A stretch of 64,000 nt of DNA, taken from contig NZ_CP053482.1 in NCBI RefSeq assembly GCF_016772315.1, forward strand, positions 1,860,001-1,924,000, in the 5' to 3' direction. The DNA comes from Thiothrix subterranea (GTDB taxonomy: Bacteria > Pseudomonadota > Gammaproteobacteria > Thiotrichales > Thiotrichaceae). Positions 13,169 through 61,025 of this stretch are shown here, one piece after another. The translations under genes were made by a program, and so were the position numbers. Below the pieces are notes generated by a model. That model was not told where the DNA came from, made no database searches, and saw nothing but the letters and a program-made list of their open reading frames with translations. Numbering within the stretch: position 1 is the stretch's first letter; each line of letters begins with the position of its first letter.

Positions 13169-13531
13169 TTATTGCGTATCAGAAATACTGTTCATGCTCG
13201 CCAGTACGCCGTTAACTTCAGCACCTTCATCCATCTGTATTTCCACGTAATGGATATTGCCATGAATCTTGGCAGTGGATTTTAGGGAAATACGGCGCGA
13301 AGCAAATATATCACCGGATATAGTGCCTGAAACAATAATGAGTGGGGCACGTATTTCCCCATTCACTTCGCTATCGCCCTGAATATACAGAGCGGCACGC
13401 GAATCCATTGGCGCCGCGATATTGCCATTCACTTTTCCATGGATATATAAATTATTCTGAAAGGCAATATTGCCAATAATTTCCAGGTCTTTTTCAAGCA
13501 ACGAAGCTGAAGAGGTGTTTCTGGTTGTCAT
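13169..13531 (-). CDS. Bactofilin-family cytoskeletal protein
   Basis: A 120-residue bactofilin (polymer-forming cytoskeletal, DUF583). The core from about residue 20 to 105 is a run of beta-helix-like repeats: IIGNIAFQNNLYIHGKVNGNI, LYIQGDSEVNGEI, LIIVSGTISGDI, ISLKSTAKIHGNI. Bactofilins self-assemble into nucleotide-free filaments that position proteins, shape cells or support motility and polarity. It stands next to, but oriented away from, the GTPase/roadblock/FimV block that begins at 14.2 kb, which makes a shared role in cell organisation plausible but unproven. Confidence 0.9.
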   Translation of the reverse strand: MTTRNTSSASLLEKDLEIIGNIAFQNNLYIHGKVNGNIAAPMDSRAALYIQGDSEVNGEIRAPLIIVSGTISGDIFASRRISLKSTAKIHGNIHYVEIQMDEGAEVNGVLASMNSISDTQ

Positions 13532-13606: not shown

Positions 13607-14002
13607 TCATGTGTTATTGCCACGCGCCCGCATTTGTTCCAGCTCATCTTCCAACACGGCAAGCGTGTCATCCCGCATTTGCAAGTCCTCTAACAAGGCT
13701 TGTATGCGGATTTCATAAGTTTCCAAGCGCTCCAAGACGTCATCGTCCTGTTGCGTGCTGTTTTCCAAGCGTGCCGTTAATTTTTCAGCACGTTCCTCCG
13801 CTTCTTTCAGATCGCGGCGCAACGTGGCATTGTCACGGTGACACTGTTCCAAGCGAAACCGCGCATCAAAAGGATTATCGGCCGTTTCCTGAGTTAATGT
13901 GTGTGATTGAGCCGTTTTATTGCCAGCCCACCACCCAATCGCTAATCCGCTTGCAATAGCTAGAGCCAACAAAAAAGCAATTTGTATTGTTAGGTAAAAC
14001 AT
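13607..14002 (-). CDS. Membrane-anchored coiled-coil protein
   Basis: A 131-residue protein of unknown function. One N-terminal transmembrane segment (about 5-28, FLLALAIASGLAIGWWAGNK) leads into a long predicted coiled coil (about 50-125) rich in Glu, Leu, Arg and Asp. The first 30 residues resemble those of the protein encoded at 21224-21877 (both begin MFYL and carry a transmembrane segment with GWWAG or GGWVA), and both continue into a coiled coil, but this one lacks that protein's C-terminal helix-hairpin-helix. It is divergent from the plus-strand GTPase block; the 158 bp between them probably holds both promoters. Confidence 0.6.
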   Translation of the reverse strand: MFYLTIQIAFLLALAIASGLAIGWWAGNKTAQSHTLTQETADNPFDARFRLEQCHRDNATLRRDLKEAEERAEKLTARLENSTQQDDDVLERLETYEIRIQALLEDLQMRDDTLAVLEDELEQMRARGNNT

Positions 14003-14188: not shown

Positions 14189-14908
14189 ATGTTAGGAAAA
14201 TTGTTGCGCAGCGGGAAAACCCAGCCCCCGCCGGAATTGCCCTTGGTCTTTAGTCTTGCGTCTGAGCGTCAGCTCCGGTTGCATCAGCACCACGATTTTT
14301 TGGGTGTGTGGCGTTTTTTATCTCACCACATTCGCCGTTACCCGCACGATTTACGCGCACACACGCAACGCATCCTGTTGGCACAGCACGAATCGCTACG
14401 CAGCCGCCTGGCAGGCAGCCTTCAGGATCTATTTCTAGCCTTAGACAACGCCGGTTCGCTCTTACGTGAACGCTTATTTCACTTGGTGAAAGATGATTTA
14501 AGCCGATCAGATGAGCTATTTTTCCAGCAATGGTTGGAAGATTCCGCAGCTCACCACAGCGAACACCAACAATGGCGAGAAGGTTCTGTTTTGTCTACGG
14601 GGCAGGAAGCCTCCGTGATCAAACTGTTGAAACAGGAACGTGTGCAAGAAATCGCCCAATATTCTAACGTGATGGAAGAAGTTTTCGCCTGTTTGGAGTA
14701 TGGTCAGATTGATACCGCCCGCGAGTTGTTAGAAGCCGAGGTTCTCGCAGGCAACACCGACGAGGCAATGGAGCAGGAGCTTGTGAACATTTATCAGTAC
14801 ACGCGCAGCAAGGATGGGCTGAATACGATGGTAAAGCAGATGCAGGAGGCGGGGCGTGAGGTTTCTGCCCTGTGGCTAGAGAAGCAGCAGGAATCCGAAC
14901 AATGGTAA
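14189..14908 (+). CDS. Helical protein with FimV-like C-terminal repeat
   Basis: A 239-residue cytoplasmic protein, first gene of the plus-strand block. It has no signal peptide and is mostly helical. Near residues 165-215 it has YGQIDTARELLEAEVLAGNTDEAMEQELVNIY, which resembles the TPR-like C-terminal motif of FimV (compare the FimV-like protein at 19243). The ATG at 14189 is preferred; an in-frame TTG at 14162 would add nine residues and no good ribosome site was seen for either. No enzymatic motif was recognised. Context suggests a partner of the GTPase or FimV-like protein. Confidence 0.6.
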   Translation: MLGKLLRSGKTQPPPELPLVFSLASERQLRLHQHHDFLGVWRFLSHHIRRYPHDLRAHTQRILLAQHESLRSRLAGSLQDLFLALDNAGSLLRERLFHLVKDDLSRSDELFFQQWLEDSAAHHSEHQQWREGSVLSTGQEASVIKLLKQERVQEIAQYSNVMEEVFACLEYGQIDTARELLEAEVLAGNTDEAMEQELVNIYQYTRSKDGLNTMVKQMQEAGREVSALWLEKQQESEQW

Positions 14909-14935
14909 AAAAATAACGATAAGCAGGCTGGATTT

Positions 14936-16303
14936 ATGCTGAAACATTCTAAAACAGGCCCCTTGAAAGTTGCGCTATTGGCAATTAGCCCGCACAACCG
15001 AGCGATACTTGAGTTTTTTTTCTCAGGTGCGGGGCGTAATTTATTTCGCGTCGTGCCAGAAGCAGAGGCAGAAGCTTTTATTCTGGATCACGATCACCCT
15101 GATGCCAAGGAAGATTGGCAACAACGGGCAGCGCTACGCAAACCCGGCATTATTTTGTCGGTACACCCGGCTGAATTGCCAAACTGCATCTGGATTCCCA
15201 AACCCTTAACATCACGCGCCTTAACCGATGCGGCTGACAGGGTGCAAGAACTGGCGGCTAATTTAACGCCAGAGAGCGACAAGGCACAGCGCCCTTCCGT
15301 CAATTCCACAACCCAAGTTGCAGCGGAAAAACCCGCAGTGAAGCAGGCGGAAGTGCATTTTCGCGACCTGCCACAACCGTTTGGGATACCGACGCACACG
15401 GAGCGCTCGGACAGAAAATTGCGTTCGCTGATAATTAATTTACCCGACGACGAAGAGCCTGAAGAGGAAGCCGCACCTGCCATGCCGGAGGCAGATATTC
15501 CTATTACCGTGTTTGACCCGGCGGAAGCGGATATTCCCTTGGAAGAGGTTGACCGCCCCGTTGATGATTCGCTGTCGCAAGAAGAGGCAGAAAATCGCTG
15601 GAAAGCGCTGTGCGGTGAACAGGACGACGTGCAGTCAGCGGCTGACGTGGCATTGTTTACCCCTGAAAATTACGTATTGAGTACGATTTTAGAAGCGATT
15701 CGCGTCGCCAGAGACACACAACAAACCGTTTATCTCAAGTTATCACCACAAGATTACGCATTATTGATGCCGCAACAGGGGCTTGCCTACTGCACATTGG
15801 ACACCCGGTCAGAAGAATTCCGCGTCTTGTGCAATAATCCCGTACAAACGGGTCAAATTGCGCTACATATACCCAACAGTGCAGAACTTGAAGGCTTGGA
15901 ACAGCACGCTATGCAGAATGCTGATGCCTTGTTGGATCTGGAAGCCTTTGTGTGGGTAAGCAGTTTGCTGACGGCACGAGGCCGCTTAGGACGTGGTGTT
16001 GAGATTGAGCAGACCATTTCTTTGAAATACTGGCCCAACCTGACGCGCCTTGAGCAGTTCCCCCACATTATGCGCATCGCGGCTTTGTGGAACCAACGCC
16101 CGGCAAGCTCACTGGATATTGCTAACGCCTTGGCTATTCCGCAACGCTATGTGTTTGCATTCCACACGGCAGCCAATGCACTTAACCTGTTTGAAATGGA
16201 TCAGAACAAACTCAAAAGCCGGGAAAAAGAGCAGCCGAAGCAAGAAAACCGGGGCTTCTTCTCGCGCTTATTGAAGCGTTTGTTGGGAGGGGGGACGAAG
16301 TAG
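14936..16303 (+). CDS. Pseudo-receiver protein with C-terminal winged-helix-like region
   Basis: A 455-residue protein of unknown function. Residues 10-105 look like a degenerate response-regulator receiver: VALLAISPHNRAILEFFF, an acidic FILDHDHPD, then IILSVHP and IPKPL in the place of the receiver Ser/Thr and Lys-Pro motifs. The middle (110-215) is low-complexity and acidic. Residues 225-345 form a conserved-looking globular part (VLSTILEAIRVARDTQQTVYLKLSPQDY). Residues 360-430 include LTRLEQFPHIMRIAALWNQRPASS and LAIPQRYVFAFHTAANALNL, resembling a winged helix. The tail is basic. It precedes the GTPase gene by 4 bp, so the two are co-translated. Confidence 0.6.
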   Translation: MLKHSKTGPLKVALLAISPHNRAILEFFFSGAGRNLFRVVPEAEAEAFILDHDHPDAKEDWQQRAALRKPGIILSVHPAELPNCIWIPKPLTSRALTDAADRVQELAANLTPESDKAQRPSVNSTTQVAAEKPAVKQAEVHFRDLPQPFGIPTHTERSDRKLRSLIINLPDDEEPEEEAAPAMPEADIPITVFDPAEADIPLEEVDRPVDDSLSQEEAENRWKALCGEQDDVQSAADVALFTPENYVLSTILEAIRVARDTQQTVYLKLSPQDYALLMPQQGLAYCTLDTRSEEFRVLCNNPVQTGQIALHIPNSAELEGLEQHAMQNADALLDLEAFVWVSSLLTARGRLGRGVEIEQTISLKYWPNLTRLEQFPHIMRIAALWNQRPASSLDIANALAIPQRYVFAFHTAANALNLFEMDQNKLKSREKEQPKQENRGFFSRLLKRLLGGGTK

Positions 16304-16307
16304 CTTT

Positions 16308-16853
16308 ATGAGCAAAATGATTAACCGCAAAATTATTTTTACCGGCCCGGTTGGTGCAGGCAAGACCACCGCTATTGCCGCCATCAGTGATATAAAGCCG
16401 GTCGCGACCGACGAATATGCTTCGGACATGACCAAAAGTCGCAAGCCGCAAACCACCGTGGCAATGGATTATGGTTTGATTCGTTTAAGCGACAACGAGC
16501 GCGTGCATTTGTATGGCACACCCGGTCAGGAACGCTTTGATTTCATGTGGGATATTCTCACCAAGGGCGGGATCGGCTTGATCTTGCTATTGGATAATAC
16601 CCGCAAAGATCCGTTTCAAGACATCCGTTTTTACACCAATGCTTTCCGTGATTTTATCGAAAAGCAGCAAATGGTGGTGGGGGTAACGCGCATGGATTTA
16701 CACCGCCAGCCGGGGTTGCCCGAATACCGCCGCTATCTGGAATCGCTGTCATTGCAAGCGCCGGTCTTTGAGGTGGATGCGCGTAGTCACAAAGATGTCA
16801 CCATGCTAATTCAGGCGCTGTTGTTCTCATTGGATCCGGGAGTGACTAACTGA
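16308..16853 (+). CDS. Small Ras/MglA-like GTPase
   Basis: A 181-residue P-loop GTPase of the bacterial small Ras-like group. G1 is GPVGAGKT (13-20), a switch I Thr lies at 49-50, and G3 is LYGTPGQERFDF (68-79). As in MglA (LYTVPGQ), the canonical Asp of G3 is absent and Gln is kept. G4 is TRMD (127-130) and a G5-like DARS lies at 157-160. MglA homologues set polarity of gliding and pilus machinery in Myxococcus, with roadblock proteins (MglB) as GTPase activators. Here the next-but-one gene encodes a roadblock protein. It overlaps the following start by 1 bp. Confidence 0.88.
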   Translation: MSKMINRKIIFTGPVGAGKTTAIAAISDIKPVATDEYASDMTKSRKPQTTVAMDYGLIRLSDNERVHLYGTPGQERFDFMWDILTKGGIGLILLLDNTRKDPFQDIRFYTNAFRDFIEKQQMVVGVTRMDLHRQPGLPEYRRYLESLSLQAPVFEVDARSHKDVTMLIQALLFSLDPGVTN

Positions 16854-17500
16854 TGAGCGAGTACATACTCACAGAAAACTTGCATCTGGGTGTTACCCCA
16901 GCGGGTACTTACTATGCGGTACAGGACAATGCCGCCGAATCAGGGCGGTTGTTTTTGCACCGCTTGTTTCAGGAAGCTGTTACCCCGCTGTTTACGGTTG
17001 ATGTTGCCTGTGAGCTAAGTGGCTACAAGAAAAAGCGTGCCTTGGAGTTTGTCCACTGGATGCAGGAAGCGGGGATGATTGTGGGGCAGGAACAAAGCGA
17101 ATCTGCGCCAGACGAAACCTTAGAGCGTTTATTGCCCAAGTTGTTGCGTACCCTGTCTGACGAAGGTAAAGCAATTTTGGCAGAAAGCCGGGGGCTGTAT
17201 TTAGGCAGTGCCGGTTTTACCCATGAAGCAGCGGAAGAGCTGGCAGCATTGAGTGCTAACTTGACGGCGGTGTATGCCCGCCACAAAGAATTGTTGCACG
17301 GCAATCTGGGCTATCGCCAACGGGCATGGGGTCTGGTGGATGCGAGTGGTAACAGTGAAGTCGGTTTTTGGCCGCTGTATATTGGTCAGAACAGGTTTAC
17401 TCTGATTATTGGTGGCATTCCCCAATTCAACCAGCCACATTTTAAACGGTTGGTGTGGGCGCTGGAAATGCGTTACGGCAATACTGAAATACCTGTATAA
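16853..17500 (+). CDS. Protein with roadblock-like C-terminal domain
   Basis: A 215-residue protein. The N-terminal 80 residues include a helical, winged-helix-like part (LFTVDVACELSGYKKKRALEFVHWMQEAGMIV). Residues 105-210 look like a diverged roadblock/LC7 fold: ILAESRGLYLGSAGFTHEAAEELAALSANL matches the roadblock pattern of a short beta hairpin (DxDGLxLxSxG) followed by an (A/E)ELAAL helix, and the rest has the beta-strand rhythm of the fold. Roadblock domains bind small GTPases, so this could be a second partner of the GTPase encoded immediately upstream. The roadblock call is by pattern only. It overlaps the GTPase stop (ATG at 16853). Confidence 0.55.
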   Translation: MSEYILTENLHLGVTPAGTYYAVQDNAAESGRLFLHRLFQEAVTPLFTVDVACELSGYKKKRALEFVHWMQEAGMIVGQEQSESAPDETLERLLPKLLRTLSDEGKAILAESRGLYLGSAGFTHEAAEELAALSANLTAVYARHKELLHGNLGYRQRAWGLVDASGNSEVGFWPLYIGQNRFTLIIGGIPQFNQPHFKRLVWALEMRYGNTEIPV

Positions 17501-17538
17501 ATTGAATTAACTATTGATAACCAAGGAGAAAAAACGAC

Positions 17539-17901
17539 ATGCGCTCTGAAATGCTGAACTCCATTCTTAGTGACCTGAACGGTTCGTCTGCGGACATCGA
17601 AGCGTCTGCGGTTTTGTCGACGGATGGCTTGATGATGGCTTCTATGTTGCCTGGTGGTATGGATGAAGACCGGGTGGGTGCGATGAGTGCCGCTATGTTG
17701 TCACTGGGCGACCGGACGGCGGAAGAATTAGCACGTGGTGCATTGGAACAAGTGCTGATCAAAGGTGCGAGAGGCTACATTCTGATGACACACGCGGGTA
17801 ATGAAGCGGTGGTGACGGTATTGGCAAAACCGAATGCCCGCCTTGGCTTGATTTTCCTGGATGTGAAGCGTGCCGCTGAAAACATCGGCAAAATCATCTA
17901 G
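17539..17901 (+). CDS. Roadblock/LC7 domain protein (MglB-like)
   Basis: A 120-residue single-domain roadblock protein. The pattern ASAVLSTDGLMMASMLPGGMDEDRVGAMSAAML followed by LGDRTAEELARGALEQVLIKGARGYILMTHAG and AVVTVLAKPNARLGLIFLDVKRAAE is typical. MglB of Myxococcus is the GTPase-activating partner of MglA; roadblock proteins of Streptomyces conservons play related roles. Start at 17539 follows AAGGAG with ideal spacing. A 38-bp gap after the previous gene and its own strong ribosome site suggest it may be made in higher amounts than its neighbours. Confidence 0.9.
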   Translation: MRSEMLNSILSDLNGSSADIEASAVLSTDGLMMASMLPGGMDEDRVGAMSAAMLSLGDRTAEELARGALEQVLIKGARGYILMTHAGNEAVVTVLAKPNARLGLIFLDVKRAAENIGKII

Positions 17902-18003
17902 TAGCTACGCTCAATGTCACAATAATAAAGTTGTCTCAATCAATGCAAGGCGGTCTATCACAGTGCCGTCTCAGACTGCGGGAAGCCAACACGGAGTGAT
18001 GCG

Positions 18004-18489
18004 ATGGAAGATATGACAAACAAGGACGTGAGGGAATCTTATACAGAACATCGGCTATGCTATTACGATGGCAATTCGCGTTGTGTTTTGGTTAAAGATG
18101 AGGAAACGCCTTTTCCAGAAGGTAAGTTGATTGTTTCGCGCACGGATCTGCGGGGCATTATTACCCATTGTAATCAGGCATTTGTGGAAATGTCTGGGTA
18201 TACCGAAGCGGAATTGATTGGGCAGCCACATTACATTTTGCGACATCCTGATATGCCGAAAGCCATTTTTAAGGATGCATGGGAAACCGTAGCGCGAGGC
18301 GAAAAATGGCATGGCTATGTTAAAAATTTATGCAAAGATGGGCGTTATTATTGGGTGTATGCCACCATTATCCTCAATGTGCGAGCGGGGAATGCAGTCA
18401 GTTGTACCTCGGTAAGGCGTAAGCCGTCGCGTACCCAAGTTGATGCCTGCATTGCGTATTACGCTCAATTAAAGCAAGCGGAGGTCTGA
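18004..18489 (+). CDS. Stand-alone PAS-domain sensor protein
   Basis: A 161-residue protein with one PAS domain (about 40-140): IVSRTDLRGIITHCNQAFVEMSGYTEAELIGQPHYILRHPDMPKAIFKDAW and KDGRYYWVYATIILNV. The HPDMP stretch and overall pattern resemble the FAD-binding PAS of the aerotaxis receptor Aer. No kinase, cyclase or methyl-accepting domain follows; the C-terminus is a short basic tail. A free PAS protein next to a PhnD-like protein and a GTPase could deliver a redox or oxygen signal, which would suit a gliding sulfur oxidiser; that is inference. Confidence 0.85.
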   Translation: MEDMTNKDVRESYTEHRLCYYDGNSRCVLVKDEETPFPEGKLIVSRTDLRGIITHCNQAFVEMSGYTEAELIGQPHYILRHPDMPKAIFKDAWETVARGEKWHGYVKNLCKDGRYYWVYATIILNVRAGNAVSCTSVRRKPSRTQVDACIAYYAQLKQAEV

Positions 18490-18490
18490 A

Positions 18491-19240
18491 ATGCAGCCTT
18501 ATGTCATGACCGTCAGCCCCGACTTTCCACCCGCTCAGATTGCCGGTTGGTATATTTTTAATACGTGGTTGCAACGCCAATTGGGTGTGCCGATCCACGT
18601 GAGTTTGTTTGATGATTTCGCCAGCCAACGGGCAGTGATTCAGAACGATGGCATCGACCTGATTTACGCCAACCCCTTTGATGCAGCAATGTTGGTACGC
18701 GAAAAAGGCTTTACTGCCATTGCGACACCGTTGCACAAGTCGGATGAGGCGATTATTGCGGTGGCGGTTGATTCGCCTGTGCAACGTATTGAAGATTTAA
18801 CGCCCGGTATTCGGATTGCAGCAACCGATGACCCAGATGTGAACCTGATTGCGATGATTATGTTGGAGCCTGCGGATTTGTCGGCTCAAAATGTCCAGAC
18901 GCACACGGTGGATACCTATGTGTTAGTGGCTAAACGCTTATTGCAAGGTCAAGCAGACGTTGGATTTTTTCTGCGGGATGCATTTCAAACACTTTCCGGC
19001 ATGATTCAGCGCCAGTTGCGTGAATTGATTCGCAGCGAAATACACGTGATTCGCCATGTATTGTTGGCAAGCCCGCGTTTGCAGGAACAGCATCAACAGT
19101 TACGCCGCCTGTTGCCCGCCATGAATACTGACCTTAAAGGCCAAGGTGTCCTAGCCAGCATGGGTTTGCAAGGCTGGGAAATACAGGAACAGGAAGATAC
19201 CGAATTTATGATTGACCTGATGGATACACTGGTTAACTAA
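18491..19240 (+). CDS. PhnD-like periplasmic-binding-fold protein without signal peptide
   Basis: A 249-residue protein with the phosphate/phosphonate-binding (PhnD, SBP-like) fold: PAQIAGWYIFNTWLQRQLG, DLIYANPFDAAMLVREKGFTAIATP, IRIAATDDPDVNLIAMIML and ADVGFFLRDAFQTLSG follow the family layout. Unlike transport PhnD proteins it starts directly with the domain and has no signal peptide or lipobox, and no ABC permease or ATPase genes are near. It is therefore likely a cytoplasmic ligand sensor. The start codon follows the PAS gene stop by 1 bp, so the two proteins are probably made together. Confidence 0.75.
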   Translation: MQPYVMTVSPDFPPAQIAGWYIFNTWLQRQLGVPIHVSLFDDFASQRAVIQNDGIDLIYANPFDAAMLVREKGFTAIATPLHKSDEAIIAVAVDSPVQRIEDLTPGIRIAATDDPDVNLIAMIMLEPADLSAQNVQTHTVDTYVLVAKRLLQGQADVGFFLRDAFQTLSGMIQRQLRELIRSEIHVIRHVLLASPRLQEQHQQLRRLLPAMNTDLKGQGVLASMGLQGWEIQEQEDTEFMIDLMDTLVN

Positions 19241-19242
19241 CC

Positions 19243-20319
19243 ATGAAAAAACTGACCCATTTTCACGCATTGGTACGCACCCGTTTGTTGCAGGTGTTGC
19301 TGCCTGTGTCACTGGCAGGCATGTGTTGGTCTGGCACAGTCTTCGCGGCGGATAGTACCTGGGAAATCAAGCCCGGCAACAGCTTGGGTAAGATCGTCGC
19401 GGAAAAATACCCCGATTATGGGAACCGTCAAGCGATTATGCGGGAAATCCTCAAGCGTAACCCGCAGGCTTTTCGCACTGAAAATATTAACAGCCTGATC
19501 GTCGGCAAAACACTTCAATTACCCGACCCTGCTGACATCCCTGATCTAAAACCGCCCGCACCCAAACCTGCCGAGGCTGCTGGTGTCGACCCAGCCCTTC
19601 AAGAAAAACTGCAAGCGTTAACAGCACAGGTCACGGAACTCGAAGAAACCATCACCATACTTGAAGAGGAAAATACAGCCTTACAGGAAATGGTGAATGA
19701 CGCAGCGACCGGTAAATCTCCCGCTGCCAGCACCGCACCTACTCCTGTTCCAGTTCCTGTTGATAATACCTTGCAACAGCGCTTAGATGAGGCCGAAACC
19801 GCCTTAGCCGCGAGCAAAGCTGCCAATACCACCTTGGAAGAACAACTGGCGATAACCAAGCGTGAGAACGAAGTATTGCAGAACGATCTGCAACAGATTC
19901 GTGCAGCCGCAGCGGTTGCGGAAACCAAGGCCAAGGGTTCAGGCAATTTACCGTGGATCTTACTGGGATTATTGGCACTGTTGACCTTGCCGCTGCTTTG
20001 GTTATTACGGCGCAAACGTGAAACCGTGCCAGCCGCCGTTGCTAGTGCGGTAGCAGTCGAACCCGCCATGCCGGTAATGACAGCCCCTGATAAGCAGCCG
20101 GAGGTATCAACACCCGTAATGGCTGATGTGCCAGCGACGGTCAGTGTCATGCCAGCCGTGGATGAAAACCCGGATGCGGCGCTCAAGCTTGACATTGCCC
20201 GTGCGTATTTGGATTTACGGGATTCCGTCGGAGCGGCTGATATTTTGCAAGATGTCTTGGTCGAAGGCGGTGAACAGCAACGCCAAGAAGCCCGTGAGAT
20301 TTTATCTTTCATTACGTGA
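19243..20319 (+). CDS. FimV-like protein (LysM, coiled coil, TM, FimV C-terminal motif)
   Basis: A 358-residue short FimV homologue. A signal peptide (cleavage near AxA at 35) precedes a FimV N-terminal/LysM region (TWEIKPGNSLGKIVAEKYP to VGKTLQLPD, about 39-90). A proline linker, a periplasmic coiled coil (about 110-225) and a transmembrane segment follow (LPWILLGLLALLTLPLLWLL, about 238-257). The cytoplasmic tail ends in the conserved FimV motif LDIARAYLDLRDSVGAADILQDVLVEGGEQQRQEAREIL. In Pseudomonas FimV anchors pole-organising and type IV pilus regulators through that motif. It is much shorter than FimV of Pseudomonas. Here it likely provides the membrane anchor for the GTPase block. Confidence 0.85.
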   Translation: MKKLTHFHALVRTRLLQVLLPVSLAGMCWSGTVFAADSTWEIKPGNSLGKIVAEKYPDYGNRQAIMREILKRNPQAFRTENINSLIVGKTLQLPDPADIPDLKPPAPKPAEAAGVDPALQEKLQALTAQVTELEETITILEEENTALQEMVNDAATGKSPAASTAPTPVPVPVDNTLQQRLDEAETALAASKAANTTLEEQLAITKRENEVLQNDLQQIRAAAAVAETKAKGSGNLPWILLGLLALLTLPLLWLLRRKRETVPAAVASAVAVEPAMPVMTAPDKQPEVSTPVMADVPATVSVMPAVDENPDAALKLDIARAYLDLRDSVGAADILQDVLVEGGEQQRQEAREILSFIT

Positions 20320-20480
20320 TTAAACCGCTAGTCTTTATAAATTAGCAGCTTATCCTGCTAGTCTGCCGCTTATCCCCCTCTGTCCTGCTGTCACTGGCGA
20401 ATATATCGCGATGCTTCTACTCTCAAGGCTCAACCATTGGTCTATATTCTATGGTTCGAGTAATACATTGGGAGTGTCGA

Positions 20481-21218
20481 ATGGCTTTTTCTGCGTTCAC
20501 CGTGAGCAAACAGCAAGTCATGCCGTTTGCTGCATTATTGGCGTTAGTAGCGGTCACGGTCTTAACCCTGTTGAGTTTACTGGTACAGCAACCGGCAATT
20601 GAAACGGATTTATTGCAACGTACCCGCCAAGCCTTAGCAGAATCCGGTCTGCCTACGCATTTGGTTCATTTTAATGGGCGTGACGGTGTTTTAACCGGAA
20701 CCATTGCGGGTGAAACCGAGGGGCAACGCTTAGCGCAAATCGTCAGCAGTGTTTATGGGGTACGTCACGTTGAAAACCGTCTGATTCCTGTCAGCACGGC
20801 TTCCGCACAAGTGGATAATGTGGAGGTTCCCCCCCTACCCATGCCCGGTTTGTATACGCCGCCCAAACGCTACCCTATCGAGAAAATCGACTTAAGCGCG
20901 ATTCAATTCGAGTATTCCAGAGCAGAATTAAACAACAACGCCGTCGCCGCCTTGGAGCAAGTGCTGGTGGAATTGCGCCAACAGCCTGCCATGATCATTG
21001 AAGTATCCGCGCACACCGACCATGAAGGCACCGCGTTAGGCAATTTGACGGTCAGTCAAGCGCGTGCCGAAGTGATCCGCAATTACTTATTATCGCAAGG
21101 CATTGAGGCCAAACAAGTGCGTGCCAAGGGCTACGGTTCTACCCGCCCCATCGTCGAGCAAAGTACTGCCGAGTCGACGCGCAATCGGCGGATTGACATT
21201 ACTGTGTTGGAGCAATAG
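20481..21218 (+). CDS. OmpA-family protein with N-terminal TM and BON-like domain
   Basis: A 246-residue protein. The ATG at 20481 follows GGGAG; an in-frame ATG 30 bases upstream lacks one. One N-terminal transmembrane segment (about 14-36) anchors it. Residues 40-100 resemble a BON domain (LLQRTRQALAESG ... GVRHVENRLIPV). The C-terminal 105 residues are an OmpA-like peptidoglycan-binding domain: IEVSAHTDHEG, LSQARAEVIRNYLLSQGI, VRAKGYGSTRPI and TRNRRIDITV. It probably links the inner membrane to peptidoglycan and could anchor a motility or polarity complex. The 160-bp gap before it holds no gene and may carry a promoter. Confidence 0.88.
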   Translation: MAFSAFTVSKQQVMPFAALLALVAVTVLTLLSLLVQQPAIETDLLQRTRQALAESGLPTHLVHFNGRDGVLTGTIAGETEGQRLAQIVSSVYGVRHVENRLIPVSTASAQVDNVEVPPLPMPGLYTPPKRYPIEKIDLSAIQFEYSRAELNNNAVAALEQVLVELRQQPAMIIEVSAHTDHEGTALGNLTVSQARAEVIRNYLLSQGIEAKQVRAKGYGSTRPIVEQSTAESTRNRRIDITVLEQ

Positions 21219-21223
21219 CCAAG

Positions 21224-21877
21224 ATGTTTTATCTCGCTCTCCACATGGTGTTATTGCTGAGCGTTGCGCTGTTGATCGGCGTATGGGTGGGCGGTTGGGT
21301 GGCAAAATGGCACTATGCACGTGAATCAGCGCAGTGCCTCACCGAATTGGCGGGCTTGCGGCGCAACTATCAGGATGCGACCGCCGACAATGCGTATCTG
21401 CGCAGTAAAACTCGCCAATTGGAAAAAGTCTTACGCAAAATCGGCACACCACCAGCGGAAAGCGAATACGGTGAATTCCTAGAACTCAGGAAAACCTTGG
21501 AAAAAACCCGGCGGGAATACCAAGTCTTGCTGGAACAATACCACCAGCAAGAAAAAATCTTGGCTGATGAACGGCGGGAATGGCAGCGTCATCAACAAGC
21601 ATTGGTAACAATACAAACTTCCCCCTTAACAGCGGAATCACTTTGCGCATCAATAACCGATATGCCACCACCCCTGGCAGGCAGGTACGACGATCTGACC
21701 CGAATTCAAGGCATTAGCCAACAATTAGCCAGCCACTTAAAGGCGTTAGGAATTGTCACCTACCGCCAAGTGGCTGAATTTACCACGGATGATATGCAGC
21801 ATATTCAACGCATTATCGGCACCGAACGCTACCAGCCACCAGAAGGCTGGGTACAGAACGCGCGTGCCTTGTGCTGA
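21224..21877 (+). CDS. Membrane coiled-coil protein with C-terminal helix-hairpin-helix
   Basis: A 217-residue protein. A transmembrane segment (about 5-28) begins MFYLALHM and resembles the N-terminus encoded at 13607-14002. A long coiled coil follows (about 38-130). The C-terminal 65 residues (DLTRIQGISQQLASHLKALGIVTYRQVAEFTTDDM) match the helix-hairpin-helix pattern of bacterial flap-endonuclease-like or DUF4332-like domains, commonly fused to membrane and ribosomal-type proteins. Whether it binds DNA is unknown; a membrane HhH protein could tether chromosome to the envelope. It is the last plus-strand gene of the block and is convergent with the next gene by 1 bp. Confidence 0.7.
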   Translation: MFYLALHMVLLLSVALLIGVWVGGWVAKWHYARESAQCLTELAGLRRNYQDATADNAYLRSKTRQLEKVLRKIGTPPAESEYGEFLELRKTLEKTRREYQVLLEQYHQQEKILADERREWQRHQQALVTIQTSPLTAESLCASITDMPPPLAGRYDDLTRIQGISQQLASHLKALGIVTYRQVAEFTTDDMQHIQRIIGTERYQPPEGWVQNARALC

Positions 21878-31399: not shown

Positions 31400-32236
31400 T
31401 TATGGGTGACATCCTGCTAGTTGGTTGTATTTTGCCACGAGGTTGGCACGGTTGGTGGCAGTAATGGGGTCTAGGGTGATGCCTGCCAGCTTATAGAGGG
31501 AGTCAATGCCGTTGATTTCGTCGGCGATGGCTTTGAGCTGGTGGCGGTGGTTGTTTTCGATTTTTTGTTCGGTGGCTTGCGTGGTTGCTCTTAGCCCGGT
31601 GGTGTCGAGTGTGCCGTTGCGAGCTTTTTCGGTGAGGCGGTAGAGGTAGCCGTGAGGGGCTTTGACCATGCCTTGTTGCATGGCTTGGTTGAGCAGGAGC
31701 AGGCAGTCGTTGGCAACTTTCGGGCTGAGGCTGTCGAGAATGATGGCTGCACGGGCTTTCTCTGGTTTGCCAAAGGTTTCGGGGTATTGGAGTTCTTCTT
31801 CAATCTCAAAAATCGACGACAGGCTGGCTTCCGTCGTTGTAGGGGTAAGGTTGTTAGCGGTAAAGGTATTAGTGGTATGTGCCCGATTTTCGGAAGCTTC
31901 TTCCGTTTTTCGGAAATCCATGCCGATTTTCGGAAGGCTGGGTACAAAAAAAGCGTGCCCGTTGGCGTAGAGCAGGTCTTCGGGGATTCGGTACTCGGCG
32001 TTAAATATGCAGTGTTCTGATACGTCTATGATGCCTTTTTCGACGAGGGTGTCTACGGCGGTTTTTAGGCGGTCTATGCGAACGCCTGCGAGTTTGCTGA
32101 GGCGTTTGTCGGTGAGTGCGTCGGCTTCTTTGCCGTAGCAGAGGGTTTGGTGAAACAGGGCGAGGAATGCTTTGAGTTGGTTTTGGGTGAGGTCAGCGGC
32201 GAGTGCTGCGCCGATCCAGTCGCGGGCTAGGCTCAT
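31400..32236 (-). CDS. Phage/plasmid replication protein, O-like N-terminal domain
   Basis: A 278-residue protein. The first 90 residues resemble the N-terminal helix-turn-helix domain of lambda-type replication protein O: LTQNQLKAFLALFHQTLCYGKEADALTDKRLSKLAGVRIDRLKTAVDTLVEKGIIDV. The middle (105-150) is low-complexity Thr-rich, and the C-terminal part (170-260) is helical and unassigned. No ATPase or nickase motifs were found. It is preceded by a 41-residue frame overlapping by 3 bp and by a candidate C4 antisense RNA, an arrangement seen in P1/P4-like replicons. It probably initiates replication of the small element, or did. Confidence 0.6.
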   Translation of the reverse strand: MSLARDWIGAALAADLTQNQLKAFLALFHQTLCYGKEADALTDKRLSKLAGVRIDRLKTAVDTLVEKGIIDVSEHCIFNAEYRIPEDLLYANGHAFFVPSLPKIGMDFRKTEEASENRAHTTNTFTANNLTPTTTEASLSSIFEIEEELQYPETFGKPEKARAAIILDSLSPKVANDCLLLLNQAMQQGMVKAPHGYLYRLTEKARNGTLDTTGLRATTQATEQKIENNHRHQLKAIADEINGIDSLYKLAGITLDPITATNRANLVAKYNQLAGCHP

Positions 32237-32358
32237 GCTGCACCTCCACGGATTGCTTCAATGTCTAGTTCGTGGGTGAGTTGGTCGGCGGCGTTTTCGA
32301 GGGTGTTGAGCAGGTCGATAACCTGCCTGCCGGGTTCGGCTGGGGATGCATATTGCAT
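32233..32358 (-). CDS. 41-residue leader protein upstream of the replication gene
   Basis: A small frame coding MQYASPAEPGRQVIDLLN... and ending ...EAIRGGAA. It has AGGA 8 bases before the ATG at 32358 and its stop overlaps the replication-protein start in ATGA. Charged and helical, no signal peptide. In phages with C4 regulation a short leader frame is what the antisense RNA controls, so this is plausibly the translationally coupled leader of the replication gene. No homologue was recognised. Confidence 0.5.
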   Translation of the reverse strand: MQYASPAEPGRQVIDLLNTLENAADQLTHELDIEAIRGGAA

Positions 32359-32529
32359 GATAGATGTCCTGTAGTTTAGGTGTCTACCCGCCTTCCGGTT
32401 CCAATCGGAGGTGGCGGGAACTGTACGGGGTTGGAACTATCGGTCTACAAGATACCGACCAGCCGTGAAGCTGCCCCGCACAGCCCCACATAGGACTATC
32501 TGCGCCGTCAGTATAAAACATTCGGACAC

Positions 32530-32606
32530 AAAAAAACCGCTTAGTGCGGCTTGTGCGCTTGTAGATAGACGGGGTTCCAATCCCGATCAGCCGCTTTCAG
32601 GCTGAT
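32530..32606 (-). ncRNA. Candidate C4-type antisense RNA
   Basis: A promoter with 17-bp spacing (see 32613-32641) would start a ~77-nt RNA ending in a terminator: CCGC/GCGG stem with loop ACTAA at 32537-32549, then seven T. The RNA has a hairpin ATCAGCC/GGCTGAT at its 5' end. Two segments are exactly complementary, in antiparallel order, to the leader of the replication gene downstream: TTGGAAC (32574-32580) to GTTCCAA (32431-32437), and TCTACAAG (32558-32565) to CTTGTAGA (32444-32451). Length, terminator and two split target sites match C4 RNA of phages P1/P7 and the P4 CI RNA. Known C4 motifs such as CTACAAGCGCA are present. Confidence 0.7.
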
Positions 32607-32612
32607 GGTGCA

Positions 32613-32641
32613 ATCCTATTACGCGATTATTTTGATTGCAA
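32613..32641 (-). promoter_or_regulatory. Sigma-70 promoter for the C4-like RNA and replication gene
   Basis: On the minus strand TTGCAA (32636-32641) and TAGGAT (32613-32618) are separated by 17 bp, with start expected near 32606. It reads into the candidate C4 RNA; passing the terminator would give the replication-gene transcript. The 22-bp palindrome lies 16 bp upstream of the -35 box. Confidence 0.6.
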
Positions 32642-32656
32642 GAAAAAAATAAGAGG

Positions 32657-32678
32657 GCTTTTAATGATCATTAAAAGC
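32657..32678. promoter_or_regulatory. 22-bp perfect palindrome, candidate operator
   Basis: GCTTTTAATGA followed directly by its exact reverse complement. It has no loop, so it is a protein-binding palindrome rather than a terminator. It lies between the minus-strand C4 promoter and the plus-strand small frame at 32764, so it could control either direction. No cognate repressor gene is obvious on the element. Confidence 0.55.
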
Positions 32679-32763
32679 GATTCTTGTGATAGTGCTCACT
32701 TTTTGGCTACACGAAGTTTGTTAAGATCACGTTCATTGGGGACATTCTTAAGGAGTGAGGGTT

Positions 32764-32868
32764 ATGACAATTTCAGGCTATACGGAAGACTTGGCGAACC
32801 AGATGGACTGCGGGTTTTCAGCAATTGAGCGCAGGCTGGCTATCTTGATATTTCTGAACGCCGTTTAA
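32764..32868 (+). CDS. 34-residue open frame
   Basis: Codes MTISGYTEDLANQMDCGF... and ends at TAA 32866. AAGGAGTGAGGG precedes the ATG, a strong ribosome site for such a short frame. Its last codons overlap the first of two 24-bp direct repeats. It could be the 5' remnant of a longer gene cut at the cassette boundary. No homologue recognised. Confidence 0.4.
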   Translation: MTISGYTEDLANQMDCGFSAIERRLAILIFLNAV

Positions 32869-32907
32869 TAAACTGATAGTGCAGAACGCTGCCTAATAAA
32901 CTGTTAG
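32856..32907. repeat. Pair of 24-bp direct repeats at start of cassette array
   Basis: 32856-32879 and 32884-32907 match at 20 of 24 positions; the shared core is TAATAAACTG. The second ends in GTTAG just before the first cassette gene. They could be a degenerate recombination boundary, but no inverted-repeat stem of an attC site is visible. Confidence 0.6.
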
Positions 32908-32922
32908 AATTCAAGGAAAAAT

Positions 32923-33408
32923 ATGATTACACTATTAAAGTTTTTAGTGGCTATAGTTTCTATAGTGATTGGCTTATATGCAACTTTAGCTTTTCAAGGA
33001 ATAATTGATTTTTTGACGCAAGTAGCTCAAATTGAATTAGGAAAAAACAACCAATTTGATTTTATATTAAGTATGGGTGTGTTTATATCAATTGCTTTTG
33101 GCATATATACAGGGAAAAAAATTTATAGATCATTAAGTATAAAGCCAAATCTCTGCTCGATTAAGAAAACCTCTATAATAATTTTCATCAAGTTACTTAT
33201 TGTGTTTATTATATTTGCAGCATCTATAACCCTAACAATAGCTTACTTATTTTCATTGAATTTACCAAGTGATTTACACGCAAGCATGATGATTAATATG
33301 GCAGCCAAATTATTTTTCTTGTCTATTATATTTGGTTTTATGTTAAAGCCTACGATTTTTAATAAAAAACATGATTCTGAAAAGCCAACAATAGAATCAC
33401 AACAATAA
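32923..33408 (+). CDS. Cassette-borne membrane protein, unknown
   Basis: A 161-residue protein with about four transmembrane segments (about 3-30, 45-63, 85-110, 122-143), short loops and a charged C-terminal tail. Coding DNA is strongly AT-rich, unlike the GC-richer neighbours, a sign of transfer. AAGGA precedes the ATG. No family recognised. It sits between the 24-bp direct repeats and a partial attC-like element, the position of a gene in an integron cassette. Confidence 0.55.
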   Translation: MITLLKFLVAIVSIVIGLYATLAFQGIIDFLTQVAQIELGKNNQFDFILSMGVFISIAFGIYTGKKIYRSLSIKPNLCSIKKTSIIIFIKLLIVFIIFAASITLTIAYLFSLNLPSDLHASMMINMAAKLFFLSIIFGFMLKPTIFNKKHDSEKPTIESQQ

Positions 33409-33411
33409 ACA

Positions 33412-33460
33412 ACCTAAAAAGAAATCGATGACGGAGGCAGTGACAACTCACGTATGTTTA
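33412..33460 (+). repeat. Partial attC-like site
   Basis: The stretch 33425-33445 (GATGACGGAGGCAGTGACA core) is homologous to the left arm of the attC site at 33886-33976 (GACGACGGACGCGGTGACA). The matching right arm with CCGC...GTTAG is missing, so this site is degenerate or deleted. It divides the first two cassette-like genes. Confidence 0.5.
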
Positions 33461-33486
33461 TTATTTTTAATCATTCAAGGGATATT

Positions 33487-33879
33487 ATGACTACTTTATT
33501 TACAAAAACTATATGCGGAATTTTATTAACTGTGGCTACTTCAGTAAGTTTTGCCGATATGCCAAAAATTGGAGCATCTATCAATGGTGGAACATTTGTT
33601 TATCGTGACGACATTGAAGGAGTCTATTGGGTTGATTGGATTGCTTATCCTCTAATGGATAAGAAAACATTAAAAAGCTCTGATAATATCCATCTAACGC
33701 TAGTTGCCGAAGGTAAAAATACTTTCGTGGGTAATGGTAATATTTACTGTTCTTCTGGTGAGTCTGATTGGGAATCAGGAAATAATAATGGTTCTATTGC
33801 AACAAATGAAAATGAAATTAAAGAATATATCCCCAAAGAGGTCATAAATAACTCTATTAATCAGTTCTGTAAAAAATAA
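33487..33879 (+). CDS. Cassette-borne secreted protein, unknown
   Basis: A 130-residue protein starting at an ATG with AAGGGA upstream; a longer frame from 33454 lacks a site. Residues 1-23 form a signal peptide (GILLTVATSVSFA, cleavage before Asp-Met-Pro). The mature domain has strands such as GGTFVYRDDIEGVYWVDWIAYPLMD and two cysteines (YCSS, QFCKK) that may pair. AT-rich. No family recognised. It ends 7 bp before a well-formed attC-like site. Confidence 0.6.
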   Translation: MTTLFTKTICGILLTVATSVSFADMPKIGASINGGTFVYRDDIEGVYWVDWIAYPLMDKKTLKSSDNIHLTLVAEGKNTFVGNGNIYCSSGESDWESGNNNGSIATNENEIKEYIPKEVINNSINQFCKK

Positions 33880-33885
33880 AAGTTA

Positions 33886-33976
33886 ATCTAACGAGTGGTT
33901 CGACGACGGACGCGGTGACAGCCCGCGATTATTAATTTCTACTCCCCGCCGCGCCCGTCAGATTTGACGTTAGGCT
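33886..33976 (+). repeat. attC-like recombination site
   Basis: A ~91-bp imperfect inverted repeat. The ends are TCTAACG (33887-33893) and CGTTAGGC (33968-33975). The inner stem pairs GACGGACGCGG (33905-33915) with CCGCGCCCGTC (33949-33959), 10 of 11. Spacing, terminal CTAACG/CGTTAG and extrahelical mismatches match integron attC architecture. It lies directly after a gene stop, as in a cassette. Confidence 0.75.
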
Positions 33977-34009
33977 GTTTGATTGTTGAAAGACTCAGGA
34001 GCAATAAAA

Positions 34010-35725: not shown

Positions 35726-36048
35726 GCGTTCAAGTAGGCGAGTTCTTGATCCAATTCCGCCGGATCGTAATTCACCACGGGAATGCCTAAGCGGCTGACG
35801 TGTTCCGTAAATTCTGCGATGGACATCCGTGCCAATTTGGCTGATTTACCCAAGCTCATGCTGTTGGATTGGAACAGGTGGGTAGCAAGCGCGACGTGTA
35901 CGCCAAACGCTAACAGGGTGTCGCTAAAGGGAACGCTGACAAATAACGGTTGCCCGTGACGGGTCACTAACGCCAATTGCCCTTGCTCGGCGGTACGGCT
36001 GAGTTCGCCAGTATGTTCGCGTAAATCGCGGATGGTGAAGGTTTGCAT
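35722..36048 (-). CDS. Antitoxin: Phd/YefM-like N-terminus fused to UPF0175
   Basis: A 108-residue antitoxin. The ATG at 36048 starts MQTFTIRDLREHTGELSRTAEQGQLALVTRHGQPLFVSVPF, a Phd/YefM-type DNA-binding fold. Residues 50-108 (GVHVALATHLFQSNSMSLGKSAKLARMSIAEFTEHVSRLGIPVVNY) match UPF0175. A frame open 31 codons further upstream covers the operator and is rejected. Stop overlaps the toxin start by 4 bp. Confidence 0.8.
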   Translation of the reverse strand: MQTFTIRDLREHTGELSRTAEQGQLALVTRHGQPLFVSVPFSDTLLAFGVHVALATHLFQSNSMSLGKSAKLARMSIAEFTEHVSRLGIPVVNYDPAELDQELAYLNA

Positions 36049-36066
36049 AGTGTTGTCCTTCTGAAA

Positions 36067-36090
36067 TTGTGCTAACAGATGATAGCACAA
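36067..36090. promoter_or_regulatory. Inverted repeat, probable autoregulatory operator of the PIN pair
   Basis: TTGTGCTA (36067-36074) and TAGCACAA (36083-36090), a perfect 8-bp dyad with 8-bp spacer, 19 bp upstream of the antitoxin start. This is the usual position and form of an operator bound by the antitoxin itself. Confidence 0.65.
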
Positions 36091-36201
36091 CAGTATTTTC
36101 AAGTGATGTGGAAGTGATGTTTTATGGTGAATAAATAACAACCATGTGGCAAAATATAAATCTATTTAATCATCTTCATTGAGCAGATTTGAGTTATTGC
36201 C

Positions 36202-37281
36202 ATGCAAAAAACGGTATTTTCTTCTTTACCCCCAGCAGCGGCTGACCGTGTTGCTGAAGTTTTGGCTCAATACGCCACCACTCAAGCCACCACCCATGAT
36301 TTCATCTATCAAACGCTGACGGCTTCGCAGGCTTACGCTTCTGATGAAGAGGTGAAGGCAACGCTTGCGGACATTTGTGACACGATTGATGCGATTGACG
36401 CGGCATACCAAGACATCCAAGCGTACAAGCAAAAGGGGTTGTCACTGGATATTTGGCTGCGTGACGGTTTGCAGGCAGCCGTTGGGCATTTGCCGCAAGC
36501 CGAGCAAGATCAAGTCGCGGATGCGGTGCGCACGGCGATGAATGCCAATAACCATGCTTTGCTGAATACCTTGTCAGACGGTGCGGCAGGTACGAATCAG
36601 GCGACAGATGTGGTCGCTAAAGGCTTTGCCGACTTAAACAAGAATGTGTTTGGATTGGAGCTGCGTGAAGACATCAAGGTCAATGCGTTGCTGAATGCGA
36701 TGGCGTTAGAAACCATCCAAGTGCATGGTGACAAGGAAAATACAGCGGCGGCAGCGTATTTTGCGTCTGGCTTGGGCGATGCCACGGATAGCAACTTTAA
36801 GAAAGTGGTGGTGACTGCGGTAGAAATTGCCAAGAAAAAACAGTTGTTGCCGGATGCGCTGAGTAACGTGTCCACCGTGGAAATGGCAGCGATTGTTGAT
36901 AAAGGCTTAACGGGCGTTAAAGTTGCGCATAAGTTGGCAACGGGTGAGCTTGATCCGATAGCAGCCGTCGAGTATTTGATTGATCGGACAGCGGCTAGGG
37001 TCAAGGCGGTGGTCGATACCACTTGCCGGACAGTGGGTAATAAGGTCGGGGCTACGATTGGCGGAATGATTGGGAGTATTTTCGGTCCCGTTGGTACGGC
37101 ATTAGGGACGGCGGTTGGTGGTTATGTTGGTGAACAAGCCGGACAAAAAGTGGCTGATTTTGTCAATAAGGGCGTTGAGAAAGTCGCTTCTGCGGCTAAA
37201 GCGGTGGTACGAAGTGCAGGTAAAACAGTTAGCAGTGCGGCTAGCAGTGTCTGGAGTGGCGTGAAGTCACTTTTTAGTTAA
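36202..37281 (+). CDS. Glycine-zipper protein, first gene of AAA+ cluster
   Basis: A 359-residue protein of unknown function. Residues 1-270 are helical and soluble-looking, with repeated hydrophobic heptads and no signal peptide. Residues 278-315 form a glycine zipper (VGNKVGATIGGMIGSIFGPVGTALGTAVGGYVG), two hairpin-prone small-residue helices like those of membrane-inserting effectors, and a Lys/Ala/Ser tail (316-359) follows. Intermediate base composition, less AT-rich than the two genes downstream. It precedes by 21 bp an unknown gene and then an AAA+ ATPase gene; all three look co-transcribed. A membrane-perforating effector held in check by the ATPase is one reading. Confidence 0.6.
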   Translation: MQKTVFSSLPPAAADRVAEVLAQYATTQATTHDFIYQTLTASQAYASDEEVKATLADICDTIDAIDAAYQDIQAYKQKGLSLDIWLRDGLQAAVGHLPQAEQDQVADAVRTAMNANNHALLNTLSDGAAGTNQATDVVAKGFADLNKNVFGLELREDIKVNALLNAMALETIQVHGDKENTAAAAYFASGLGDATDSNFKKVVVTAVEIAKKKQLLPDALSNVSTVEMAAIVDKGLTGVKVAHKLATGELDPIAAVEYLIDRTAARVKAVVDTTCRTVGNKVGATIGGMIGSIFGPVGTALGTAVGGYVGEQAGQKVADFVNKGVEKVASAAKAVVRSAGKTVSSAASSVWSGVKSLFS

Positions 37282-37302
37282 TAATTTGGGGCGAATAACA
37301 TT

Positions 37303-38403: not shown

Positions 38404-38405
38404 TT

Positions 38406-39890: not shown

Positions 39891-39922
39891 CCCATTCATA
39901 TCGTTAATATTCTCAGTGTTTT

Positions 39923-39949
39923 AAATGGACAGGCTTCAGTCTGTCCTTT
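39923..39949. terminator. Candidate bidirectional terminator
   Basis: GGACAG (39927-39932) pairs with CTGTCC (39941-39946) around an 8-base loop, flanked by AAA and TTT. It lies between the convergent AAA+ ATPase and YoeB-like toxin genes. Weak T-run, so efficiency is uncertain. Confidence 0.5.
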
Positions 39950-39955
39950 GGATTA

Positions 39956-61024: not shown

Positions 61025-61025
61025 G

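Follow-up and report, generated by a model that had tools for sequence, protein, structure and literature searches.

Why is a small Ras-like GTPase encoded in one run with roadblock proteins, a free-standing PAS protein and a FimV-like protein, and what might such a set of genes do together? The question is raised by a stretch of 64,000 nucleotides (nt) of Thiothrix subterranea DNA, hereafter the window, in which ten open reading frames (ORFs), all on the plus strand, fill positions 14189-21877. The genes, numbered 1 to 10 below, are separated by gaps of 1-38 nt or overlap by 1 nt, except that wider gaps precede gene 6 (102 nt) and gene 9 (131 nt). A first-pass annotation, made from the sequence alone, had described this ten-gene block and interpreted it as a combined redox-sensing polarity switch. 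The observation is confirmed and the interpretation is partly supported. That is, the core turned out to belong to an already known class, the Group 3 MglA systems, while the joining of sensors and of FimV and bactofilin to that core holds up in related loci. We read the block as an extended Group 3 MglA system that would act as a polarity switch for type IV pili, with oxygen or redox state as its probable input, and put the probability of this reading at about 0.5.

The core of the block

Gene 3 (16308-16853), the MglA-like GTPase of the first-pass annotation, matches the Pfam families Ras (4.4e-07) and ATP_bind_1 (1.1e-11); its own motifs are YGTPGQ (G3), TRMD (G4) and DAR (G5). In an alignment of 34 GTPases of this family, the G3 residues T71, P72, G73 and Q74 are invariant, as are T127 and D130 of the G4 motif, which is mostly TRMD or TQMD and contains no lysine, and D157 and R159 of the G5 motif DAR, A158 being kept in at least 90% of the sequences. 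A threonine in G3 of MglA is on record in the accessible text of PMC3000849. According to the accessible text of Wuichet and Sogaard-Andersen (PMC4316618), who also give the G4 and G5 motifs of the class, Group 3 MglA was described in 2014 without known function; it combines MglA with one or two MglB proteins and with a functionally uncharacterised protein whose N-terminus is receiver-like, and occurs almost only in beta- and gammaproteobacteria. The loci studied here share with this class the lysine-less G4, the DAR G5, the pseudo-receiver protein, the one or two roadblock proteins and the occurrence in beta- and gammaproteobacteria. Given the GTPase motifs, the receiver-like gene 2 and the roadblock genes, genes 2 to 5 are thus a Group 3 MglA system. 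A search of relatives, 15 same-genus genomes included, found the GTPase in 36/36 genomes of its own family, the Thiotrichaceae, and in 2/21 others. The window genome encodes a second, more distant GTPase of the family outside the window (C1:661330-661833, 40% identity, in a frame of 296 amino acids (aa)).

Gene 2 (14936-16303) was modelled with AlphaFold2 (AF2) at a mean predicted local distance difference test score (pLDDT) of 82.3, as two domains, a receiver-like one (residues 10-110) and a C-terminal one of high pLDDT, joined by a linker of low confidence, in agreement with the pseudo-receiver protein suggested beforehand. The best Foldseek match is the FleQ domain of the flagellar regulator FlrA (8h5v, E 7.4e-04), and CheY hits were found too. 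This likeness of the N-terminus to FlrA favours a different role for the whole set, in which the GTPase and the sensors would control gene 2 as a transcription switch through a DNA-binding winged helix in its C-terminal domain, any link with motility being indirect. Such a switch was indeed proposed by Wuichet and Sogaard-Andersen from the Phyre2 fold of the gene 2 family, in the accessible text of PMC4316618. The winged helix is not confirmed by our model, however: none was recognised over the C-terminal domain among the Foldseek matches listed, and the 50 hits look like receiver-domain matches by name and length, in a table that gives no aligned ranges. Furthermore, the tetratricopeptide repeat (TPR) protein, FimV and, once, pilBCD as neighbours point to localisation rather than transcription, and we regard a transcription switch as unlikely.

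The roadblock identity of gene 5 (17539-17901), called MglB-like at first pass, was borne out, both by the roadblock family Robl_LC7 (5.7e-16) and by PDB entry 7f8m (E 4.3e-30). The protein is highly conserved, sharing 75-99% identity with 29 homologues. A close sequence relationship to MglC of Myxococcus xanthus was considered and rejected, as 7CT3/7CY1 are not among its nine PDB hits. Gene 4 (16853-17500) is a divergent protein with a probable roadblock domain at its C-terminus, so that the second roadblock-like protein proposed at first pass survives in a weaker form: Robl_LC7 reaches 0.04 with the window protein and is found at E<=0.05 in 15/40 members of the family (best 0.0012), CvnB5 (3leq) matches at E 0.007, and an hhalign comparison of gene 4 with gene 5 gave no match. 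Gene 1 (14189-14908), to which no identity had been given, belongs to a family in which TPR_14 is matched by 22 and FimV_Cterm by 5 of 51 members (E<=0.05). No Pfam family was matched by the window protein, whose AF2 model is all-helical (mean pLDDT 89.0); many TPR proteins are among the Foldseek matches of this model, the best of which has an E of 0.17.

Conservation of the core was examined in 140 loci. The 80 named loci are the best of 492 found, a choice that favours near relatives. The survey loci, 60 in all, are GTPase matches, down to 177.6 bits, from an even class survey of 369 genomes, three Thiotrichaceae (G000, G017 and G019) having been left out. Many of the fetched stretches are shorter than 20 kb, and a neighbour called absent is one absent from the fetched stretch. 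Opposite-strand ORFs in GC-rich loci gave rise to spurious clusters and were disregarded. A locus was called extended when genes 1, 2, 4 and 5 and the GTPase lie on one strand within 9 kb, as they do in 74/80 named loci; the remaining six (L053, L079, L084, L085, L093 and L098) are cut by contig ends. The order 1-2-GTPase-4-5 is kept in 72 of the 74, extra genes between genes 4 and 5 being tolerated in this count, and is rearranged in L071 and L106. In L034 the GTPase and gene 2 share one frame. The named loci span a large number of genera, and the identity of their GTPases falls to about 62%. A chance neighbourhood of the core was rejected on the recurrence of the set. In the survey the extended set was found in 24/60 loci, with the order kept in all 24. 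Among the other 36, gene 2, the GTPase and a roadblock gene follow each other in 22, and gene 4 is missing from all of these 22 but L142. Conserved gene order, the lack of which would have refuted the first-pass interpretation, is thus seen across beta- and gammaproteobacteria, often with the PAS and PhnD-type genes included.

Gene 4 is present in 40/369 genomes of the class survey, 35 of which are GTPase-positive. Genes 1 and 4 form a single fused ORF at L188:3742-5181 and L189:6676-8118, loci that come from two genomes of the same family, and in L187 and L190 the two genes occur as a pair, with the rest of the core missing within the fetched 17-18 kb. The fusion and the pairing tie gene 1 to gene 4, and gene 1 belongs to the core of the system.

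The sensor slot

Gene 6 (18004-18489) matches PAS_3 at 8.3e-18. Its best PDB matches are structures of Aer (8dik, E 9.2e-34; 31cj, 4.1e-31), followed by 3ewk (1.4e-23) and the nitrogen fixation regulator 2gj3 (1.2e-09). The free PAS sensor proposed initially is therefore of the Aer type, which makes redox sensing plausible. H76, R80-H81-P82-D83-M84-P85 and W102 are invariant among 26 homologues. Positions such as H76 and RHPDMP bind flavin adenine dinucleotide (FAD) in Aer, and gene 6 may be expected to carry FAD.

Gene 7 (18491-19240) belongs to the Phosphonate-bd family (PF12974, 5.7e-41), as its PhnD-like label had implied. In the homologues listed an in-frame start lies no more than nine residues from the domain, with the exception of a split gene in L042; in GC-rich loci further upstream in-frame starts exist. 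Since the start is so near to the PhnD-like domain, gene 7 is probably cytosolic and apparently lacks a signal peptide. An ordinary periplasmic transporter subunit was rejected on the same start positions, judged without a signal-peptide predictor. The split gene (L042:12179-12911) is a PhnD-like gene in two frames and probably reflects a frameshift or an assembly error.

The PAS and PhnD-type genes occur together in 53/74 extended named and 10/24 extended survey loci. In the class survey, PhnD-type hits at E<=1e-20 were obtained in 19 of the 369 genomes. Sixteen of these score at least 270 bits. For 14 of the 16 the GTPase is no more than about 3 kb away, and the other two (G180 and G399) lie beside gene 4; the hits of the three lower-scoring genomes lie elsewhere. 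In L080 there is a second PAS-PhnD pair, after which come another gene 2 and another GTPase (L080:13799-16764).

Other loci hold other genes in the same place. A protoglobin was found there in 7/140 loci (Pfam E 1.3e-20 to 9.3e-26, a 62-aa weak protoglobin-profile fragment in L134 being excluded from the count) and, by profile, in L184 and L185 besides. One locus has a protein with FIST_N and FIST_C domains (L138:4135-5433), another a protein with the CZB zinc-binding chemoreceptor domain (L129:11487-11960). In seven Halothiobacillus-type loci the roadblock gene is preceded by a family of proteins of about 150 aa (e.g. L059:12036-12479), which looked V4R-like by eye; two members scanned against Pfam and one searched against the PDB had no match. 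The sensor genes are exchangeable at a fixed slot, then, and often of the oxygen/redox type. That the sensors feed the switch is best supported by this swapping at a constant position. Two precedents can be named from accessible texts: a globin-roadblock fusion, HGbRL, has been reported as unique to Methylacidiphilum (PMC4476040), and a protoglobin kinase of M. xanthus has been proposed to modulate pilus-based motility by oxygen (PMC6211767). As in HGbRL, a globin would be wired to a roadblock protein, with the difference that separate genes in one operon take the place of the fusion.

FimV, bactofilin and the envelope genes

Gene 8 (19243-20319) encodes a short FimV/HubP-type protein. Its C-terminal domain bears out the FimV-like assignment (FimV_Cterm, 4.3e-12, 45.9 bits, over the cut-off), whereas the core domain stays under the cut-off of 43.45 (FimV_core, 2.9e-07, 30.2 bits). 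Among nine FimV homologues from outside the Thiotrichaceae, the core is over the cut-off in eight and the C-terminal domain in four. Besides gene 8, the genome has two further FimV_core matches, in frames of 1026 aa and 394 aa. A bactofilin gene, seen next door at first pass, is indeed a divergent neighbour of the block (13169-13531, minus strand; PF04519, 9.2e-25, against 2e-26 for the bactofilin of L089).

In most Thiotrichaceae loci FimV follows PhnD or gene 5. Sphaerotilus, Leptothrix and relatives have the order bactofilin-1-2-GTPase-4-5-PAS-PhnD-FimV on one strand; that is, in these beta-type loci bactofilin lies upstream and on the same strand as the system. A maximum-likelihood tree of 137 GTPases groups 40 of the 41 loci with linked FimV into a single clade (45 rows, support 97/82). 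The exception is L088, in which FimV is about 8 kb from the GTPase. Five members of the clade are without FimV, two of them (L041 and L053) being cut by contig ends and three (L039, L084 and L087) having none in the fetched stretch. This grouping makes the FimV linkage look like one origin, common to beta- and gammaproteobacteria, and the joining of FimV and bactofilin to the GTPase-roadblock set, claimed for a single block, holds for a whole clade. FimV as a core part everywhere was rejected: it is linked in 0/24 extended survey loci, and bactofilin in 1/24. The OmpA gene, too, is of limited occurrence: the 19/80 named loci that have it all belong to the Thiotrichaceae part of the tree, and it was found in 0/60 survey loci. 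The ten genes therefore do not form one uniform system.

The OmpA protein named at first pass is gene 9 (20451-21218), an envelope protein with OmpA (1.9e-18) and BON (1.4e-04, below its cut-off) matches. The last gene, gene 10 (21224-21877), encodes a membrane/coiled-coil protein; the HhH part of its initial description is seen only as below-cut-off NCBIfam matches to the C-terminus. The OmpA and HhH genes are Thiotrichaceae additions. A second membrane/coiled-coil gene, assigned to the gene 10 family by shared profile hits, lies at 13607-14002 on the minus strand, so that two related genes flank the block.

The FimV-linked clade holds Thiothrix, Thiofilum, Leucothrix, Cocleimonas, Sphaerotilus and Leptothrix loci, together with unclassified and Burkholderiaceae metagenome-assembled genomes. 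The six named genera are filamentous or sheathed. This fact, and the confinement of OmpA to the Thiotrichaceae part, would suit an envelope or filament scaffold, in which FimV, bactofilin, OmpA and HhH proteins organise poles, septa or sheath and are positioned by the GTPase and roadblock proteins without any role in motility. The core and the sensors are also found in Methylomonas, Methylobacter, Halothiobacillus and Methylophaga, however, with neither FimV nor bactofilin in the fetched stretch, and a scaffold seems to us distinctly improbable. Doubtful to a higher degree is a loose neighbourhood, that is, a Group 3 MglA operon of the known kind placed by chance beside unrelated fimV, ompA and bactofilin genes. 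The variable presence of FimV, OmpA and HhH, down to the absence of FimV from the extended survey loci, could be so explained. Against it, FimV comes after PhnD in both the Sphaerotilus/Leptothrix-type loci and Thiothrix, and the FimV-linked loci, L088 apart, form one clade. Finally, a nutrient sensor, in which gene 7 would perceive a cytosolic ligand of the phosphorus type and the other genes relay the signal to adhesion or metabolism, agrees with the family of gene 7 and with the PAS gene that accompanies the PhnD-type gene in 53/54 extended named loci (the other, L060, stops at the end of the fetched stretch), but is very improbable in view of the weak similarity to the solved phosphite-binding protein PtxB (E 6.5e-4) and of the protoglobin, FIST or CZB genes that fill the slot elsewhere.

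The proposed pilus switch and its known relatives

As an extended Group 3 MglA system, the block might work as follows. The GTPase would cycle under the control of the roadblock proteins, gene 5 and probably gene 4. Cytosolic sensors in the exchangeable slot, in the window the Aer-type PAS protein, expected with FAD, and the PhnD-like ligand protein, would bias this cycle by redox or oxygen state, presumably through contact with the roadblock proteins, and a protoglobin in the slot would do so as a heme protein. The active GTPase would act through the TPR gene 1 and the pseudo-receiver gene 2, and the output would be the choice of the pole where type IV pili extend. FimV and bactofilin could supply a polar or envelope anchor in one clade, which includes many filamentous bacteria. 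The accessible text of PMC7519303 describes how MglA-GTP of M. xanthus acts on PilB via SgmX, a TPR protein, which provides a parallel to gene 1. The motility role of the block is something that we infer. A more far-reaching version, which we offer as tentative, is a kinase-free surface aerotaxis: Aer-PAS or protoglobin would feed a GTPase/roadblock switch that sets the type IV pilus pole, beside or instead of Pil-Chp, and in one clade FimV and bactofilin would have joined the operon.

One locus links the system directly with pilus genes. At L120:11414-16151 a protoglobin gene directly after the roadblock gene is followed by pilB, pilC and pilD. Besides L120, PilB-like ATPases (29-38% identity) were found several kb away in L064, L091 and L150; in the last of these (L150:17789-19899, G044:C30) the PilB-like stretches overlap two PilT-family genes over the cut-off, at a distance of about 8 kb from a Group 3 GTPase locus of the smaller type. 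Across the class survey, PilB is present in 59/66 GTPase-positive vs 193/303 other genomes (Fisher p 1.8e-5, kinship ignored); at most three PilB candidates were scored per genome, and the cut-off was taken as about 1e-203, read by eye from the best E. By this cut-off the window genome has PilB (best E 6.4e-238), and PilB was over the cut-off in 9/9 fully scored genomes, eight of them Thiotrichaceae. PilT is over the cut-off in 22/23 Thiotrichaceae, the remaining genome, G020, having PilB. Outside the window, three PilT-family genes stand in tandem at C1:2223157-2226458. The flagellar export protein FlhA was over the cut-off in 0/23 Thiotrichaceae, with a lower-scoring relative in 19/23; the below-cut-off FlhA-like export-gate protein of the window genome is at C1:1140408-1142387, outside the window.

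Several observations weigh against the polarity switch. PilC and PilD hits are confined to 1/140 loci (L120), and PilB is common anyway (252/369 genomes). Extended loci with neither PAS/PhnD, protoglobin nor the gene of about 150 aa number 20/74 named and 11/24 survey loci; among the 20, two stop no more than 60 nt from gene 5, and a FIST or CZB gene is present in two of the 11. The roadblock identity of gene 4 is probable and weak, and FimV and bactofilin are all but missing from the extended survey loci. Moreover, the genomes G180, G135 and G351 (loci L183, L184 and L185) have genes 1, 2 and 4, a roadblock gene and sensors; between genes 2 and 4 the GTPase is missing, and none was found elsewhere in these genomes. 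An artefact of the first-look filter was rejected, as neither the window GTPase used as a query (E<=1) nor PF03029 gave a match in the three; G351 is 79% complete. Because core and sensors are kept there without a detectable GTPase, the roadblock proteins of these genomes would need a different partner, unless the GTPase is dispensable or replaced. Lastly, CheA dimerisation-domain matches were obtained in 17/23 Thiotrichaceae. These are weak (21.9-36.2 bits; 16 genomes over Pfam's 23-bit cut-off), none being above 37 bits in the 23 genomes, compared with more than 50 bits in 7/13 outside genomes. Such matches make a divergent CheA-like kinase possible in Thiothrix. The one in the window genome (C1:844503-844670, 24.3 bits, outside the window) lies in a 965-aa frame, and similar frames occur in other Thiothrix.

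The proposed switch resembles several known systems in part. The accessible text of the Group 3 description (PMC4316618) mentions no TPR protein, Aer-PAS/PhnD pair, protoglobin/FIST/CZB slot, FimV or bactofilin, all of which the block or its relatives have. With MglA-MglB-RomR-SgmX of M. xanthus, which controls type IV pilus placement, the block has in common a Ras-like GTPase, a roadblock protein, a receiver-domain protein and a TPR protein. Gene 5, however, matches 7f8m and CvnB5 better than MglB, and M. xanthus has a Group 1 system, the partners RomR, FrzS and AglZ of which are encoded apart (PMC4316618, accessible text). The actinobacterial conservons (CvnA-D, Group 2) likewise combine a GTPase with the DAR G5, a roadblock protein and a sensory component in one operon, but their sensory component CvnA is a histidine kinase, and no kinase domain was matched by Pfam among the ten block proteins. 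Gene 8 resembles the FimV/HubP landmark proteins in its matches to the FimV core (under the cut-off) and C-terminal domains; it differs in being short, the third FimV_core member of its genome and encoded with a GTPase. Pil-Chp works through the CheA-like kinase ChpA and response regulators. The probable role in type IV pilus pole choice would be shared with it, whereas the Thiotrichaceae have only the weak CheA dimerisation-domain hits given above. In Pseudomonas aeruginosa, Pil-Chp serves the choice of the pilus pole with FimV as a hub, according to the accessible text of PMC12632253.

Related GTPases occur in at least 66 of the 369 sampled class genomes, a lower bound as no more than nine candidates were scored per genome. 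For this Group 3 MglA the operon suggests a signal, oxygen or redox, and an output, pilus polarity, both of which are directly testable. Should the reading be true, a Ras-like bacterial switch would gain environmental input without a histidine kinase, and the FimV landmark would be linked to an MglA-type switch, that is, two solutions to pole choice from different bacteria would meet. Among the open-licence papers that literature searches listed, no report was apparent that joins FimV, an Aer-type PAS or protoglobin to Group 3 MglA.

As for the remaining features of the DNA, matches in a promoter and terminator scan were at chance level, and a PHROGs scan of genes 1, 2, 4 and 10 was uninformative. 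Most of the window has a GC content near 0.5, with low-GC stretches (0.37-0.43) at 32001-34000, 36001-40000 and 60001-62000.

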